Below are positions 1,365 to 46,935 of a stretch of DNA of 64,000 nt, one piece after another. The translations under genes and the position numbers were made by a program. The stretch covers positions 248,001 through 312,000 of the forward strand of contig NZ_CALSFS010000002.1 of the NCBI RefSeq assembly GCF_943736985.1, given 5' to 3'. The stretch is from Clostridium sp. Marseille-Q2269. Lineage in GTDB: Bacteria > Bacillota > Clostridia > Clostridiales > Clostridiaceae. Under the pieces are notes generated by a model that was not told the DNA's origin, did no database searches, and was given only the letters and a program-made list of their open reading frames with translations. The stretch's first letter is position 1. The number at the start of each line of letters is the position of its first letter.

Positions 1365-1803
1365 TATGTTCACTCCTTTTAATTGGTGAATTTATTTTTT
1401 TATAGTCTTCTACCATATCTTGTAAGGTAGTTGATTCCATTATATTATCTAAACTTTCCTTTATCTTTACCCACAAAAGTCTAGTTGCACAACACTCTGC
1501 GTTACCGCAACTATCTTCGCCTTCTAAGCAACTAGATATTTCTATAGGGCCTTCTAAAACCTGCATAATATCTGCTACAGTTATATCCTTAGGATGCCTA
1601 TTTAGTATATATCCCCCTTGAGCGCCTCTTATACTTTTTATAAGTTTAGCTTTTCTAAGCGGAGAAAATAACTGTTCCAAATAATACTCAGATATATGCT
1701 GCCTTTCGGAAATATTTTTTATAGAAATTGGTTGCCCACCGTAGTTAATTGCCAAATCTACCATAGCCTTTACTCCATATCTACCCTTAGTTGACAACTT
1801 CAT
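1357..1803 (-). CDS. iscR: Rrf2-family regulator IscR
   Basis: This is a winged-helix Rrf2-family transcription factor of 148 residues. The N-terminus MKLSTKGRYGVKAMVDLA and the GGYILNR wing are typical. Cysteines at 92, 99, 104 and 105 fit the Fe-S binding cysteine region of IscR proteins, so it probably senses cluster supply and represses its own operon. It is the first gene before nifS and nifU, and its last codons overlap the nifS start. A near-consensus promoter lies about 50 bases upstream. A CymR-like cysteine-metabolism role is less likely given the cysteine cluster, but a sequence-only call cannot fully separate the two. Confidence 0.93.
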   Translation of the reverse strand: MKLSTKGRYGVKAMVDLAINYGGQPISIKNISERQHISEYYLEQLFSPLRKAKLIKSIRGAQGGYILNRHPKDITVADIMQVLEGPIEISSCLEGEDSCGNAECCATRLLWVKIKESLDNIMESTTLQDMVEDYKKINSPIKRSEHNE

Positions 1804-6168: not shown

Positions 6169-6406
6169 AGTCTCACTCCTTATTTGTATTACTCTGTATC
6201 ACTAGTATATTGAATTATTAACAATAAAAAAATAAATCCATCAATAATAATCATATTCTATAATTATATTCTATAAACTTCCTTTATATCCTTTATAATA
6301 AAGGACATGTTTAGATAATTTTAAGAACGCATAAAATAAAAACAACTATAAATATACCTAACATGAAGCGAAATTTCAAGTTAAAATTTAAAACTTATTT
6401 ATAATT

Positions 6407-6854
6407 TAAGGAAATTATGACGTAAAAAGTCACTACCTTAAATTTTAAAAAAGGATATGTGGCTTGAAAGGCAATTCACTTCAATAAGAGATTCTAATTT
6501 GTTTTTCCTTAAAATATATGATTCCAAATCATCACTCGCTGAACGCTCAAACAATGATTGGGAATATACATATATTTCGGTAAAACAAATAAGGATCGCT
6601 AATTTTATTCAAATGCCTTTTACACCACATATCTCATTTTTTTAATCTAAGGAAAGATAATATAACTATTTAAAGGTAATTTTCTATGGAATAGGAAGTA
6701 CAAAATGAGGATTTTACTCCTCTTTGTTACGTAAAATCTACAATTATTTTTATCATTAAAAGAAAGGGCTTTTAAAAAATTTTCGTTAGAAGATTCATGC
6801 GTAGCATGCGGGGTAAGTATATCATTCATAAAATTTACATATGTTAATTTTTAT
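6407..6854. repeat. Dispersed structured repeat, copy A (about 448 bp)
   Basis: This intergenic stretch is a diverged copy of the sequence at 31510-31949. Both start with TAAGGAAATTA and end near CATATGTTAATTTTTAT. Each has long inverted arms (here 6436-6473 with 6614-6652) that enclose a smaller hairpin (6521-6532 with 6554-6565). The hairpin loop reads ACTCG..AACGCTCAAACA in both copies. A second half of about 200 bp follows and contains CATGCGTAGCATG and TTACGTAA. There are no terminal inverted repeats or transposase. It may be a non-autonomous element or a family of structured RNAs. Confidence 0.8.
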
Positions 6855-7335: not shown

Positions 7336-7920
7336 ATGACTAAAATAATTGATTGTAAAGGACTAAAATGTCCACAACCAGTAATCAACACAAAAAAATT
7401 CTTTGATTCTATAGAAGAGGGCCAAGCTACTACCATAGTAGATAACGAAGTAGCTAAAAATAATATTTTAAAACTTTCCGAAAAGAATGGGTTTAAAAGT
7501 GAAGTAGAAGAAAAAGATTCTCTATATTACATAACTATGACAAAAGAGCACTGTATTGATTGTGAATCAATTTTATCAAATACTGATAAATTAGTTATGG
7601 TTATTTCTAAGAACGTTCTTGGTAGTGGAGATGACAAATTAGGAAGTGCTCTAATGAAAAGCTATTTATATGCTTTAAGTGAAAGTGATAAGCATCCTTC
7701 TCATTTATTATTTTTAAATGGTGGAGTCAAGCTTACAGTGGAAGGTTCTGAATGTCTTGAAAGTATAGAATCTTTGAAAAACAAAGGAGTCACTATACTA
7801 AGCTGTGGAACTTGTCTTGATTTTTATGGAATAAAAGATAAGCTTAAAATTGGAGAAATAACAAATATGTATACTATAGTAGAAGAAATGACTTCTGCAA
7901 ATAACACCATATTCATCTAA
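7336..7920 (+). CDS. yedF: YedF-like selenium metabolism protein (TusA + DsrE-like domains)
   Basis: The 194-residue protein has an N-terminal TusA/SirA fold with the invariant persulfide cysteine in LKCPQP (Cys11). A C-terminal DsrE-like domain ends near SCGTCLDFYGI (about residues 155-165). This fusion is the YedF type commonly found with selenophosphate synthase (SelD) and thought to carry reduced selenium or sulfur. Neither selD nor selA is in the window, but a UGA-containing selenoprotein gene lies 39 kb away. It is monocistronic, with its own promoter and a strong terminator shared with the convergent transporter gene. Confidence 0.9.
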   Translation: MTKIIDCKGLKCPQPVINTKKFFDSIEEGQATTIVDNEVAKNNILKLSEKNGFKSEVEEKDSLYYITMTKEHCIDCESILSNTDKLVMVISKNVLGSGDDKLGSALMKSYLYALSESDKHPSHLLFLNGGVKLTVEGSECLESIESLKNKGVTILSCGTCLDFYGIKDKLKIGEITNMYTIVEEMTSANNTIFI

Positions 7921-38045: not shown

Positions 38046-39191
38046 TTACTTTATTATTATTTTTGTTTTTAATCTATTGCTCCAAGATTTTAAAGGAGAA
38101 TTTATCTTTACACATTTATCTTTATTAACTATTTTTTCTCCAAAAATTAAATCTAATATATGAATAGACTTAGCTCCCCCTTTAATCATTGACTCTCTAC
38201 ACCCTGCACAATAAGTAACGATATAATCTTGTCCAATATTTTTTGCAGCTTTCTTCATCATAGCTTTGGAAAGTTTAGAATTTACAGCGTGAATCATTCC
38301 TCCAGTACCGCAGCAATTGGTCATTTTATTTATATTGTTACTTTCTAAAACTTTATAATCTAATTGTCCCATTATCCATCTTATACTTTCCTGTATTTCT
38401 TTTTCGTATCTTGTAGCACAAGAATCATGAATAGAAAACTTAGTCTCACTATTCTTACCTTTATTTATAGACCCTTGAGGAATTCCTATTTCCTTTAATA
38501 CTGTCCATAAAGATTTAACTTTAATTTTTGTTCCATAATTTTTCATTATCATATAACAATTTTGGCAGGCAGTAATTACTTCTATAGCACCAGTATTATT
38601 TATACGATTTTCTACTCTACTAAATAATTTTGTGAATTTTTCTTGTTGTCCTAAAGTTTCTGTAGGTTTTCCACAGCATTCTAAAAGCATAGATGTGCCT
38701 GGCAACTCTTTTTTCAAATAATTATATGTCTTTAATACTAATTCTGGACTATATGAAGAAAGTGTACAACCAGGGAAAAATACTCTTTCTACTTTATTAG
38801 TTTCTTTATTTTTATCTTCCACATATTTTGTAAATATTTTTGAAAACCCTAATTTTTGATGCATGTTTATAGCATTATGACCTTTCAGTGAAGTCTTCCC
38901 ATTATTTTGCTCTAATACTTCTACTCTAAGGTCCATAAATGCTTTTCCCATATTTAATTTTTTAGGACAAACTTCTCTACACTTTCCACAAATACTGCAA
39001 GAATAAGGAAGTATAGCCTCAAATGTATTTTTTTTGATTATACTACTAAAAATTTTCCTAGGATTACCTCCAAATTCTTTTAGCATATAACAATTTTTAA
39101 CACACAAATTACACTCTATACAATCTTTTTTTATACACTCTATATATACCTTTGTTTCTTCGTTTTTTATTTTAAAATATTTTTTATCCAT
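38046..39191 (-). CDS. 4Fe-4S / CCG-domain heterodisulfide-reductase-like protein
   Basis: About 381 residues. Two ferredoxin motifs lie near the N-terminus (CIECNLCVKNC and CSICGKCREVCP). Two CCG cysteine-rich domains follow, FFPGCTLSSY...LECCGKP and HDSCATRYEK...NCCGTGG, plus a final TYCAGCRE. This is the GlpC/LutA/HdrD-type architecture that passes electrons through clusters. An upstream GTG is possible, but AGGTGG precedes the ATG at 39191, which overlaps the stop of the kinase-like gene by one base. No flavin-oxidase partner (GlpA, LutB or GlcD) is adjacent, so the electron donor is unknown. Confidence 0.85.
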   Translation of the reverse strand: MDKKYFKIKNEETKVYIECIKKDCIECNLCVKNCYMLKEFGGNPRKIFSSIIKKNTFEAILPYSCSICGKCREVCPKKLNMGKAFMDLRVEVLEQNNGKTSLKGHNAINMHQKLGFSKIFTKYVEDKNKETNKVERVFFPGCTLSSYSPELVLKTYNYLKKELPGTSMLLECCGKPTETLGQQEKFTKLFSRVENRINNTGAIEVITACQNCYMIMKNYGTKIKVKSLWTVLKEIGIPQGSINKGKNSETKFSIHDSCATRYEKEIQESIRWIMGQLDYKVLESNNINKMTNCCGTGGMIHAVNSKLSKAMMKKAAKNIGQDYIVTYCAGCRESMIKGGAKSIHILDLIFGEKIVNKDKCVKINSPLKSWSNRLKTKIIIK

Positions 39192-40189
39192 TAAAACCAC
39201 CTATTTAAGAGATTATTCATAAAATCTAATTCTAAATATTCTTTTATTTTTTCATAGGTATCCATATTTTTTATATCTCTATTTGGATTTTGATATTCTA
39301 TATAAGCATAAGCACACCAACTTAAAGCTCTCAAATATAAGTACGGTGTATATATATCTACTCTTTCTCTTATATTTTTTCCATTAAAAATTCTTTCATA
39401 ATTATTAAAAAACTCATCTACTTCATAATCCTTCAATATATAGTTAGTTTTCCAAAGAGTAGTAGTTGGTGCTAAAAACTGAGTTAAATCTTGACAAGGA
39501 TCACTTATAACTGGTTTTTCCCAATCTATTAAATAAAAGTTATTAGATCCTATTATAAAGTTATGAGAATTAACTTCCGTATTATTTATTACCTGTATAG
39601 GATCATCTATAAAATACTTTTCCTTATGGGCATTTTCTGTAGCCCAATTTATAAATTTATAAAAGAATTTCTTTACATCCCCTTTTATAATTGGACTGCT
39701 CCAAAAATCTTTTAAAAGATTTTTAGCCTCTTTTATTCTGTCAGAAAGTATATTTTTTTCTACTATGAATGACAAAAAATCTGCCTTATTAAGCTTTACA
39801 GAGTGTATTTCCCCAAATATTCTAGCAGCTTTATTTAAGTCCCTTTCATAATTTAATGGTTCTCCTTTTAAGAACTCCATTATTAATACTCCATATTTTA
39901 TGTATTTTTTACTACCATCTACATAATAGACCCTTGGAGTAACTTTACTTACTTCTAATCTCTTTAAGGCTGAATATTCATATTCTATCTGTTTTTCTAA
40001 CCCTAATTGACTTCCTGTATTTACTCTAAAAACATATTTATTTATTTTATCTTCTAATATAAAGTTTATATTATATTCACCTTGCGCTAAAAATATTATA
40101 TTAAAATCTTTATTTAAATCTAATATTTTAAATAAATCCTTACTAAAAATATAATTTCTTATTTCCTTAATCAACATATCTCTCAACAT
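39191..40189 (-). CDS. Aminoglycoside/choline kinase-fold phosphotransferase-like protein
   Basis: About 332 residues. The N-lobe FNIIFLAQGEYNINFIL, the EYSALKRL helix and LIMEFLKGEPL belong to the APH/choline kinase fold. The catalytic loop, normally HGD.x.N, reads NNTEVNSHNF, and the DFG-like motif reads YLIDWEKP. The catalytic aspartate therefore appears replaced while the metal aspartate is kept. It may be a divergent kinase or a binding protein. The ATG at 40189 lies 8 bases after GGAG. The gene overlaps the TIGR04282 gene by 23 bases and touches the Fe-S gene, so the three are coupled. Confidence 0.75.
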   Translation of the reverse strand: MLRDMLIKEIRNYIFSKDLFKILDLNKDFNIIFLAQGEYNINFILEDKINKYVFRVNTGSQLGLEKQIEYEYSALKRLEVSKVTPRVYYVDGSKKYIKYGVLIMEFLKGEPLNYERDLNKAARIFGEIHSVKLNKADFLSFIVEKNILSDRIKEAKNLLKDFWSSPIIKGDVKKFFYKFINWATENAHKEKYFIDDPIQVINNTEVNSHNFIIGSNNFYLIDWEKPVISDPCQDLTQFLAPTTTLWKTNYILKDYEVDEFFNNYERIFNGKNIRERVDIYTPYLYLRALSWCAYAYIEYQNPNRDIKNMDTYEKIKEYLELDFMNNLLNRWF

Positions 40190-40868
40190 ATTCATCTCTC
40201 CACCAATTTTCTAAATATTTCTTAGTATGTTTAGGTACAACATCATATTTATATAATTTATGATTTAGTCTATGTATTAAATTTTTAAGATCCTCTTTAG
40301 TGTCTATATCCTCATATTTTTCTGCAAAACCTACAGTTAAGTTTTCCTTATTAAGTATATGTATAGTGCTATAAAACACAGATTTTTCTCCCCATTTTAT
40401 ATCTCCTTTAAAAACTATTTTATTTAATTTCTTCATGCCCACAAGATAATATCCTCCATCTAGTGTAGGACCAAAACATAGGTCTTTATTTTCTAAAATA
40501 TCAAAAGCCCTTAATATATCTTTGCTTTGAATTTCCGGTATATCAGATCCTATTAAAATAACCTTTTCATAACTCTTATTTAGAATGTAGTTTACAGCGT
40601 TCTCCATTCTTTCTCCTATATCTTTACCTTTTTGTGGAAAATTATTGATAAAATTAGGCATTAAAGACTGTATTATACTAAAATCTCCTTCATCACTATA
40701 AGTTACATATATATCCATGCTTTCTTTTAGATCTTTGCACATATTAAATATATCTTGTAAAAAGCATTTATGTATATCTGCACACTGCTCTCCTGTCAAT
40801 ATTTTCATAAGTCTAGTTTTAGTCTTATAAGGTACAGGTATTCTAGTCATTATTATAAGTGCCTTCAT
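40167..40868 (-). CDS. TIGR04282-family (DUF2064) glycosyltransferase
   Basis: 233 residues. It opens MKALIIMTRIPVPYKTKTRL, the nucleotide-binding start of the DUF2064 GT-A-like family. KGKDIGERMENAV, LIGSDIPEI (the DxD position) and CFGPTLDGGYYLVGM follow. The family was named for arsenosugar biosynthesis clusters, but no arsenic gene is present here. It directly follows the TIGR04283 gene with a one-base TAATG overlap and overlaps the kinase-like gene. The pair is probably used to build a different glycoside or glycolipid. Confidence 0.88.
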   Translation of the reverse strand: MKALIIMTRIPVPYKTKTRLMKILTGEQCADIHKCFLQDIFNMCKDLKESMDIYVTYSDEGDFSIIQSLMPNFINNFPQKGKDIGERMENAVNYILNKSYEKVILIGSDIPEIQSKDILRAFDILENKDLCFGPTLDGGYYLVGMKKLNKIVFKGDIKWGEKSVFYSTIHILNKENLTVGFAEKYEDIDTKEDLKNLIHRLNHKLYKYDVVPKHTKKYLENWWRDEYVERYVD

Positions 40869-41542
40869 TACCTTTCCTCCCGATATATTTTATTTAATCT
40901 TTCTGTAGATACTCCCATAAAATATAAAATTCTTAATTTATGCATTAATAGGTGAGTTTTTAATTGTCCTCTCTTTTTAAATCTTCTTGCAGAAGTTCCA
41001 ATATGTAAAGATATCAACTTAAGTTTACCCAATTTTCTTAATGCTAAAGAAAATTCTAAGTCTTCCATTATGTCCAATGAAGGGTATCCTCCCATACTTA
41101 TAAATACATCTTTTCTAATAAATATTCCTTGATCACCATAATATATATTAAATTTTGCTGCTCTTATATTAGATGTTTTAGCTATATATTTCATAAATAG
41201 ACTATTTAAATCATAAAAATATATAGAAAATCCTCCTCCTATATACCCATTATGTATAACTTTTTCTATAGCATGTATACTGTTAGAATTAAGTATAGAA
41301 TCTGAATGTACAAACCAGAGAATTTCCCCTCTTGCTTCTTTAGCTCCACAATTCATCTGATTAGACCTTCCTTTTTTACTCTTTATAACTCTACCATATT
41401 TGCATGCTATATCTATGGTGCCATCTTCACTTCCACCATCTATAATTAGAATTTCTTTTTCACCATTTAAATCTTTTAAGCTCTCTAATAAATATTTTAT
41501 AGTTTTCTCTTCATTTAAAACCGGAATTATTATAGAAATCAT
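40868..41542 (-). CDS. TIGR04283-family GT2 glycosyltransferase
   Basis: 224 residues. This is a GT-A fold with SIIIPVLNEEKTI (3-15), LIIDGGSEDGT (32-42) and WFVHSDS (the DxD-like site). The distal GGYPSLDIMEDLEFSLALRKLGK also matches TIGR04283. It is the first gene of the operon that continues with TIGR04282, a kinase-like protein, a Fe-S protein and two TVP38 proteins. In other bacteria TIGR04283 and TIGR04282 occur together in arsenosugar or related clusters. Here the acceptor and donor are unknown. Confidence 0.9.
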   Translation of the reverse strand: MISIIIPVLNEEKTIKYLLESLKDLNGEKEILIIDGGSEDGTIDIACKYGRVIKSKKGRSNQMNCGAKEARGEILWFVHSDSILNSNSIHAIEKVIHNGYIGGGFSIYFYDLNSLFMKYIAKTSNIRAAKFNIYYGDQGIFIRKDVFISMGGYPSLDIMEDLEFSLALRKLGKLKLISLHIGTSARRFKKRGQLKTHLLMHKLRILYFMGVSTERLNKIYREER

Positions 41543-44289: not shown

Positions 44290-45459
44290 TTAAAGAAGTT
44301 TTATAAATTTATCTATAAATTCATCTGCTCTTTTAAAATCATCTTCACTTGGAACAAACTTAAATTTAAAAGGTTCTTCTACAACTTTTAATTTTAAACC
44401 TCTCAATCTATCTGTCATAAGAGATGGGCCTTCACCGCTCCATCCATAAGATCCAAAGGCACCTGCTGCTTTTCCTCTATTAGTTATAACACCTATATGA
44501 CTCATTACATCCCAAACTGGTTTTACTGCATCTTGATTTATAGTTGGAGATCCCAAGATTATTCCTGTAGAATTTTCTATTAATTCTAATGCCTTTTCCA
44601 TAGTAATAGAAGTTATCTCATTACCTTCTGCTTTAATTCCTTTTTCATTAAGTTTTTTAACTAAATACTCTCCCATATGTTCTGTATTTCCATAAGCTGA
44701 AATATATAAAACTTGAATATTTTGTTGTTTTGTATCTTCTGTAGCCCATTTTCTATAAAGATCTATATACTTAGAAATATCTTGTGTATGAACAGGACCG
44801 TGACTTGTAGCTACCATATCAAAATCTAAATCTTTTATTTTTTCTAATCCCATCAATACAAATTTTTTAAATGGTCCCATGATAACATCAAAATAATATC
44901 TCATTTCTTCTAGATAATCTCCAGAACAAGTGTCTGTTATACAACCTTCTGGGCAGTAATGACAACCTAGAAAATCACAAGTAAATAATACTTTTTCATT
45001 TTCAGCATAAGTAAACATAGTATCTGGCCAATGTAGATTTGGCGCAGTTATAAACTTTAATGTAGTTTTTCCTAAATTTAATTCTTTAGGTGCTGGTAAA
45101 CTATTAAATTCCTTATTTATGATATCTTTAATGTAGATTAACGCTGCTCGTGATCCTATAACTGTTGCATCTGGATACATTTCTACCAATTTACTTAGAG
45201 ATCCACTATGATCTAGTTCTGTATGTTGAACAATTATATAGTCAACCTTTTTATCTCCTATTATTCCTTTTATATTTTCCATGTATTCATCAAAATAACC
45301 ATCTTTAACACAATCTATAAGAGCTACTTTTTCATCATCTATAAGATATGCATTATATGTTGTTCCTCTTTTAGTTTCCATTATAATATCAAAAACTCTC
45401 AATTCTGGATTTTTAACTCCAACCCAATGAATATTGTTTTTCAATTGTACGCTTGACAT
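44290..45459 (-). CDS. A-type flavodiiron protein (FprA family)
   Basis: 389 residues. The N-terminal metallo-beta-lactamase-like domain has the diiron ligands HTELDH (79-84) and HWPDTMFTY and DFLGCHYC. The C-terminal flavodoxin domain begins [17 protein letters not shown] (about 250-266). Such proteins reduce oxygen or nitric oxide to water or nitrous oxide and protect anaerobes. The electron donor is normally rubredoxin, not found here. It has a GGAGG ribosome binding site, is monocistronic and has no attached rubredoxin domain. Confidence 0.95.
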
Positions 45460-45776: not shown

Positions 45777-46283
45777 TTATTTTGATGACATATCAGAAAC
45801 TAATTTTATGTTTAAGGTCTTAGATAATGCTTTTACTAAAGCAAATGCTATTATACCATCTACAAAATGATGAAGCACAGATCCTACACCTACAATAACT
45901 AATATTTTATATAGTGTAAATCCAAATGGAACTACTGCTATAGCTTCTAAGGCTCCATGTATAGGGGCTGTTATAGCTATTACCTTTTTAAATGATATTC
46001 CTTTCTTTATAAGAATAGCTCCTATAAGTCCAACAAATGTATGCATAAAAGCTCTAGCTGCTATAACTAAAGGGGTTGATACTAAGAATCCTAAGGCTGA
46101 ACCAAATCCCACCATAACAGCTGAAGCTGGACCTAATAACATAGCTATAAATAAAGGCACATGAGATGCTAATGTAGCTGTAAAAGGTCCTATCTGAATT
46201 TTTAAAAATCCAAAAGCTAAAGGAATTACTATGGCTAAAGCAGTTAAAACTGCAGCATAAGTCATCTTTCTTATATTTTTCAT
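45777..46283 (-). CDS. ECF transporter S component
   Basis: 168 residues with about six hydrophobic segments. TYAAVLTALAIVIPL at the start, LASHVPLFIAMLLGP and the final GSVLHHFVDGIIAFAL fit small substrate-binding S components of energy-coupling-factor vitamin transporters. The A and T subunits are not adjacent, so it probably shares the common ECF module. The vitamin is not certain; niacin, queuosine precursor or similar is possible. The open frame reaches 46328, but AGGAGGAAGG precedes the ATG at 46283. A promoter with a palindrome directly downstream suggests a dedicated repressor. Confidence 0.8.
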   Translation of the reverse strand: MKNIRKMTYAAVLTALAIVIPLAFGFLKIQIGPFTATLASHVPLFIAMLLGPASAVMVGFGSALGFLVSTPLVIAARAFMHTFVGLIGAILIKKGISFKKVIAITAPIHGALEAIAVVPFGFTLYKILVIVGVGSVLHHFVDGIIAFALVKALSKTLNIKLVSDMSSK

Positions 46284-46306
46284 TTTCCTTCCTCCTGTAT
46301 AGTTAA

Positions 46307-46318
46307 GTGTATATACAC
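46307..46318 (-). promoter_or_regulatory. Palindrome in the ECF gene leader
   Basis: GTGTATATACAC is a perfect 12-bp palindrome just after the -10 element, in the transcript start area. A second GTATAC lies inside the -10 itself. This is a likely operator, but the regulator is unknown. Confidence 0.45.
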
Positions 46319-46319
46319 C

Positions 46320-46348
46320 AGTATACATTGAAAAATTGATTTTGTAAA
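46320..46348 (-). promoter_or_regulatory. Promoter of the ECF S component
   Basis: Minus strand: TTTACA (46348-46343), a 17-base spacer, TATACT (46325-46320). It lies 36 bases upstream of the start codon. Confidence 0.7.
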
Positions 46349-46455: not shown

Positions 46456-46484
46456 TTGACAGTATATATGAAATAAATTAACAT
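46456..46484 (+). promoter_or_regulatory. Promoter of the selenoprotein gene
   Basis: A perfect TTGACA (46456-46461) is followed after 17 bases by TAACAT (46479-46484). The candidate operator lies directly downstream. The start codon is at 46523. Confidence 0.6.
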
Positions 46485-46490
46485 ATAAAT

Positions 46491-46507
46491 ATACCCCATA
46501 AGGGTAT
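46491..46507 (+). promoter_or_regulatory. Candidate CsoR/CstR operator at the selenoprotein promoter
   Basis: ATACCCCATAAGGGTAT has 6-bp perfect arms (ATACCC and GGGTAT). It has the same 17-bp length and outer arms as the site at the CsoR-family gene (21534-21550). It lies at about the transcription start, a typical place for repression. Confidence 0.6.
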
Positions 46508-46522
46508 GGAGGTGTTTCTAGT

Positions 46523-46825
46523 ATGATAAAAATAGATGATAAAGCATTACAGATAATAAAAGAAAAAAATTCAAACTTTATAATTAATGTAATAACCACA
46601 AGTTGTGGTGGATGAGGCTCCAATGGAAGAGAAATAAAAAATCTCAGTGTTGAGATTTCAAAAACATACCCATCCAAGGATCTTTTTAACAGTTTTGAAT
46701 ATGATGGAATAAAAATATTTATAAATAAATCTCTAAAATTAGGAGAAGAAGTATTAGTTTATCATAAACTTAAATTACCTTTAATAGGTGCAGTATATGG
46801 AGTTAAAGGCGTTATAATTCCTTAA
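46523..46825 (+). CDS. Selenoprotein with in-frame UGA (CC/Se-motif or HesB-like type)
   Basis: The frame from ATG 46523 to TAA 46823-46825 gives 100 residues if the TGA at 46613-46615 is read as selenocysteine (residue 31) in the context TTSCGGUGSN. Coding quality is equal on both sides of the TGA: EISKTYPSKDLF, then YDGIKIFINKSLKLGEE and a final AVYGVKGVIIP. A hairpin (46639-46646 with 46651-46658) has a GTGT loop starting 31 bases after the UGA, which fits bacterial SECIS geometry. The Cys-Gly-Gly-Sec motif suggests a redox or metal-binding role. GGAGG precedes the ATG. The precise family name is from memory. Confidence 0.85.
46613..46658 (+). promoter_or_regulatory. Bacterial SECIS element candidate
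   Basis: The element consists of the UGA codon at 46613-46615 and the downstream hairpin AAATCTCA-GTGT-TGAGATTT (46639-46658). The loop begins with G, and the UGA-to-loop distance is 31 bases, within the 16-37 base range usual for SelB-recognised hairpins. Confidence 0.7.
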
Positions 46826-46897: not shown

Positions 46898-46935
46898 AAA
46901 AGCTATAAATTTGAAATATCAAATTTATAGCTTTT
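46898..46935. terminator. Terminator after the selenoprotein gene
   Basis: The 17-bp perfect stem AAAAGCTATAAATTTGA / TCAAATTTATAGCTTTT has a 4-base loop. It probably also terminates the convergent small gene at 47033. Confidence 0.88.

Follow-up and report, generated by a model that had tools for sequence, protein, structure and literature searches.

The stretch of DNA analysed here (64,000 nt, called the window below) contains a small open frame on the forward strand at 46523-46825, which runs from an ATG at 46523 to a TAA at 46823-46825 and gives 100 residues once its single in-frame TGA is taken as selenocysteine (Sec), with no further stop. This TGA is codon 31 (46613-46615, forward strand). 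The protein reads M...SCGGUGS...VIIP, with Sec31 in the context SCGGUGS and a C-G-G-U motif. The original prediction had described one TGA at codon 31, a C-terminal half without other stops and a Cys-Gly-Gly-Sec-Gly context, and both the coordinates and the translation agree with it. Upstream, 8 bases separate the end of a Shine-Dalgarno-like GGAGGTG from the ATG. Neither half of the frame appears in the list of window ORFs of at least 50 aa.

Several signals surround the frame. A weak promoter-like site, TTGACA-17-TAACAT, was found by a site scan at 46456-46484 on the forward strand, where such sites are no commoner in the window than in shuffles. On the 3' side of the gene, a terminator scan gave an intrinsic-terminator-like hairpin of 17 pairs at 46898-46935 (forward strand). 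Besides, a short G+C-rich inverted repeat at 46491-46511 lies over the Shine-Dalgarno region and is terminator-like on the opposite strand. The upstream neighbour is divergent (45777-46328, reverse strand) and encodes a hydrophobic protein that matched no family and, judged by eye, resembles a permease; beyond it lies a flavorubredoxin-like flavoprotein (44290-45459, reverse strand), which we take to be FprA-like. Downstream, and convergent with the frame, are small genes, a peptide deformylase gene and V-type ATPase genes. Farther away, at 38046-41542, two glycosyltransferases match TIGR04282 and TIGR04283 over cut-off, and near them is a protein resembling part of NF045663 ("diclust_near_Sec"; 275 bits, cut-off 530).

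Within the gene, a hairpin of 8 pairs with the loop GTGT is located at 46639-46658 on the forward strand (AAATCTCA-GTGT-TGAGATTT), and its loop starts with G and begins 31 bases past the codon-31 TGA. The published rules for bacterial SECIS elements give a loop of 3-9 bases on a stem of at least 4 pairs, a G in the first two loop bases and a loop 16-37 bases past the UGA (PMC13188914). The window hairpin agrees with all of them, which bears out the earlier claim of a G-starting hairpin at a distance of 31 bases, in the SECIS range.

To judge how often such a context occurs by chance, we counted TGAs over the whole window. Open flanks (20 codons before and 25 after the TGA) together with a Cys within 4 residues were found for 11 TGAs, codon 31 included, so the Cys-TGA context alone proves nothing. 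Both strands together contain 1741 TGA triplets, of which 13 are followed, under the published SECIS rules, by a hairpin as good as that of codon 31 or better (-6.3 kcal/mol or lower), and of the 57 TGAs with open flanks, the codon-31 TGA is the only one with such a hairpin. The whole 68-base stretch from the TGA on folds no more stably than shuffles (z -0.41). Within the window, the combination of the codon-31 TGA and its hairpin is more than chance.

We then looked for relatives. A scan of GTDB contigs with the 100-residue protein gave 273 pattern-matching stretches, none of which was confirmed as a relative. The same kind of scan with the neighbouring flavoprotein returned six loci, of which four are named Clostridium, and led to C. 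magnum (G001). This genome has five paralogues, two of which stand in tandem about 3.5 kb from the flavoprotein gene (L001:5842-6523, reverse strand); in this tandem, one paralogue (6242-6523) has TGA and the other Cys-Cys. With the window protein as query (E 0.001), 47 of the 206 genomes searched in the family holding C. magnum have homologues, and these align over the full length across the TGA, with a best identity of 51%. No close copy of the window species was met, and its V-type ATPase B is at most 82% identical to any match listed. Two of the 47 genomes contain only fragments, one at a contig end (G088) and one broken (G141). The broken remnant (G141:C23:393966-394157, with one TGA and three TAA) lies about 10 kb from V-type ATPase genes, and no SelB over cut-off is present in that genome.

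In total, 78 distinct homologous segments were collected, and 58 of them went into an alignment (A1), from which near-copies and some of the most distant segments were left out. A profile made from A1 has matches in 27 of 291 genomes drawn from the class. In the A1 column of codon 31 there are 23 TGA (Sec), 34 Cys and 1 Ser. The original prediction would have been contradicted by a random residue or a true stop at this codon in homologues, and it turned out that 57 of 58 rows have Sec or Cys there. The spacing of Cys and Sec varies by clade (CGGU, CGU, GGUC, CU and CEU). In a tree of the 60 rows scoring at least 80 bits (30 Sec and 30 Cys), the well-supported branches require Sec and Cys to have replaced each other at least 5 times; where the window row belongs in it is unsure, for its long end branch meets another long branch.

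The hairpins were compared between TGA and Cys copies in 77 of the 78 segments, L098 being dropped for having neither Cys nor TGA at the codon. A hairpin under the SECIS rules lies 3' of the codon in 37 of 40 TGA copies, whereas only 8 of 37 Cys copies have one, and it is better than 95% of base shuffles in 29 of the 40 and 3 of the 37, respectively. Hairpin energies differ accordingly between the two kinds of copy (Mann-Whitney p 1.5e-10), although p values of this sort overstate the difference because the copies share ancestry. Under the rules used, three TGA copies (L027, L036 and L101) have no hairpin. Of the 60 closer rows, 23 of 30 TGA copies but 1 of 30 Cys copies have a six-base consensus loop between CUC and GAG, a pattern that was drawn post hoc, after the hairpins had been seen. 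The bases of stem pairs 4 to 6, counted from the loop, differ between copies, and they still pair in 68 of 69 cells. The three Cys copies with a good hairpin are L037, L044 and L068. L044 (G104, 1507-1788, reverse strand), which has the highest identity to the window protein of all rows (51%), is also the sole Cys copy with the consensus loop, which reads UGUAUU in it and UGGAUU in its kin; its hairpin is likely a relic of a recent change from Sec to Cys.

The selenium machinery was searched in the same 206 genomes. SelB is over cut-off in 88 of them and tRNA-Sec in 87, all within the 88. Every genome with a TGA in the motif (29 of 29) has SelB over cut-off (p 8e-13 over 206 genomes, a value that again takes no account of common descent), and 28 of these 29 have tRNA-Sec over cut-off, the exception being G191. 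Counted by copies, with the fragments of G088 and G141 omitted and the TGA of G129 scored as outside the motif, the SelB genomes hold 32 copies with a motif TGA and 18 without, and the other genomes hold 0 and 13. The original prediction had also taken a YedF gene in the window as support for selenium use. The gene is indeed there (7336-7920, forward strand; TIGR03527, 241 bits against a cut-off of 110), but it is a weaker marker than stated: YedF occurs in 134 of 206 genomes, only 83 of which have SelB, so it gives mild support for the use of Sec. The window also contains a NifS-type cysteine desulfurase (TIGR03402, over cut-off) at 171-1373 on the reverse strand.

Because its relatives carry the same recoded TGA or a Cys at this place, the frame at 46523-46825 very probably encodes a selenoprotein with Sec at codon 31. 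We propose a stand-alone gene for a small selenoprotein, in which the ribosome would read the codon-31 UGA as Sec with SelB, tRNA-Sec and the hairpin that lies 31 bases farther on, as the comparison of copies suggests. The least certain step concerns the product: Cys28-x-x-Sec31 most likely forms a selenol/thiol site that either carries out redox chemistry or holds a metal or an Fe-S cluster.

The place of the gene was compared across genomes. For 22 of the 47 genomes a V-type ATPase B match is listed, with G004, G086, G124 and G129 left out (weak, unlisted places). In 17 of the 22, the gene and V-type ATPase B are on one contig within 10 kb; in the remaining 5 they are on different contigs and thus uninformative. 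Each of the 18 gene/V-type ATPase pairs that share a contig shows the side and orientation seen in the window. Of the 17 linked genomes, 13 have TGA; in the remaining four, the copy is of the Cys type (G144), a TGA copy accompanies a Cys copy (G089), or there are fragments (G088 and G141). A gene that falls into one cluster with peptide deformylase is on the same side in 21 loci including the window, the window copy being the one examined with Pfam. Four paralogues of the CU clade (L085, L089, L090 and L092) precede a pyruvate:ferredoxin oxidoreductase gene by at least 114 bases, and four Cys paralogues with CDCG (L013, L070, L074 and L082) follow a 4Fe-4S (Fer4_5) protein gene at a distance of at least 42 bases. 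In both cases the paralogue and its neighbour share a strand, and Pfam confirmed one of the four loci of each kind. These neighbours are weak hints of redox or Fe-S work.

A redox or metal-related role is what we consider probable for the protein, although with less assurance than its selenoprotein nature. A real selenoprotein could also serve a regulatory or structural purpose. For this reading speaks the position of the gene, alone between the divergent family-less gene (45777-46328, reverse strand) and the terminator-like hairpin, and since the gene stands alone in the window its neighbourhood names no reaction. However, 57 of 58 rows have retained Cys or Sec at codon 31, and Sec serves mostly at catalytic or ligand sites, which makes a regulatory or structural role unlikely.

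A redox or metal-binding selenoprotein would be the wrong picture altogether if the gene were a pseudogene, a Cys-type copy in which the TGA has lately arisen by nonsense mutation. TGA is one base away from the Cys codons TGC and TGT, and a broken remnant does exist in one genome (G141); but the window frame is otherwise intact, it has the SECIS hairpin that is rare in Cys copies, and TGA stands at the same column in 22 other rows of 58, which leaves very little room for a pseudogene. It is just as improbable that the UGA is read as another residue, or that a near-cognate tRNA merely lets the ribosome read through a plain stop, rather than that it is decoded as Sec, for SelB over cut-off accompanies the motif TGA in 29 of 29 genomes. 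Just one genome without SelB over cut-off, G129, has a TGA in a near-complete copy (L080), and there the TGA is near the C-terminal end and the motif has Cys.

To place this selenoprotein among known families, we searched profile and structure databases. The window protein has no match in Pfam, with none to PF01521 (IscA/HesB proteins) at E 1 or better, and none to NCBIfam TIGR01911 (HesB-like selenoprotein) at E 1 or better; the best matches of the PDB sequence searches were at E 0.2 or worse, and Rfam gave nothing in the window at gathering score. The profile of the window group aligns over 85 columns with a profile of HesB-like proteins (14 rows, from 16 loci), and the Sec columns of the two coincide. 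The hhalign probability is 92 at 12% identity. In a rerun with controls the score was 38.4, whereas none of 100 column shuffles exceeded 18.8 and the reversed alignment scored 15.4. Among the 58 relatives, PF01521 is matched by 2 (best E 3e-4) and TIGR01911 by 1 (E 1e-4), all of them weakly. The HesB-like rows mostly have U-G-G-P, whereas the window protein lacks it. The window group is probably distant kin of HesB/IscA-like proteins, and on this profile comparison it may share their fold. We regard it as a long shot that the group is an IscA/HesB-related protein binding a metal or Fe-S cluster via a Sec that has shifted its position within the motif from lineage to lineage (CGGU, CGU, GGUC, CU, CEU). 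If true, a carrier protein would here use Sec, interchangeably with Cys, to ligate a cluster or metal, which would be a rare case.

Whatever the role, members of the group are common in the bacterial family that was searched, with 47 of 206 genomes containing them. Sec and Cys copies occur at one conserved place across genomes, and stand next to each other in C. magnum, which makes them a natural set for studying what selenium contributes.

The closest known system is NCBIfam NF041239 (CC/Se motif family (seleno)protein, Moor_selen_rel), which matches residues 1-71 of the window protein with E 6e-5. Its score of 23 bits stays under the curated cut-off, which is 40 bits, so the window protein is a below-cut-off relative rather than a member. 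In a table of a 2026 review, NF041239 is a CxxU selenoprotein predicted in Moorella thermoacetica (PMC13188914). A table row of PMC9312934 lists a hypothetical protein predicted in the same species, which is probably of the same family, and passages from the main text of PMC5029168 and PMC2398784 have no mention of Moorella. In the literature searched, one paper has NF041239 and selenoproteins named jointly. The NF041239 profile matches 39 of 206 genomes at E 0.01, 15 of them over cut-off, and it finds 56 of the 58 A1 rows with an E of at most 0.1. Matches over cut-off coincide with only 2 of 65 places found with the window protein (G155 and G191), and gene annotation may well truncate or miss many copies for this reason.

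In conclusion, the novelty is modest: the window gene is a divergent representative of an already listed, uncharacterised selenoprotein group. The C28-G-G-U31 of the window protein agrees with the listed motif CxxU (PMC13188914), while the window group as a whole differs from that single motif in its varied spacing of Cys and Sec.
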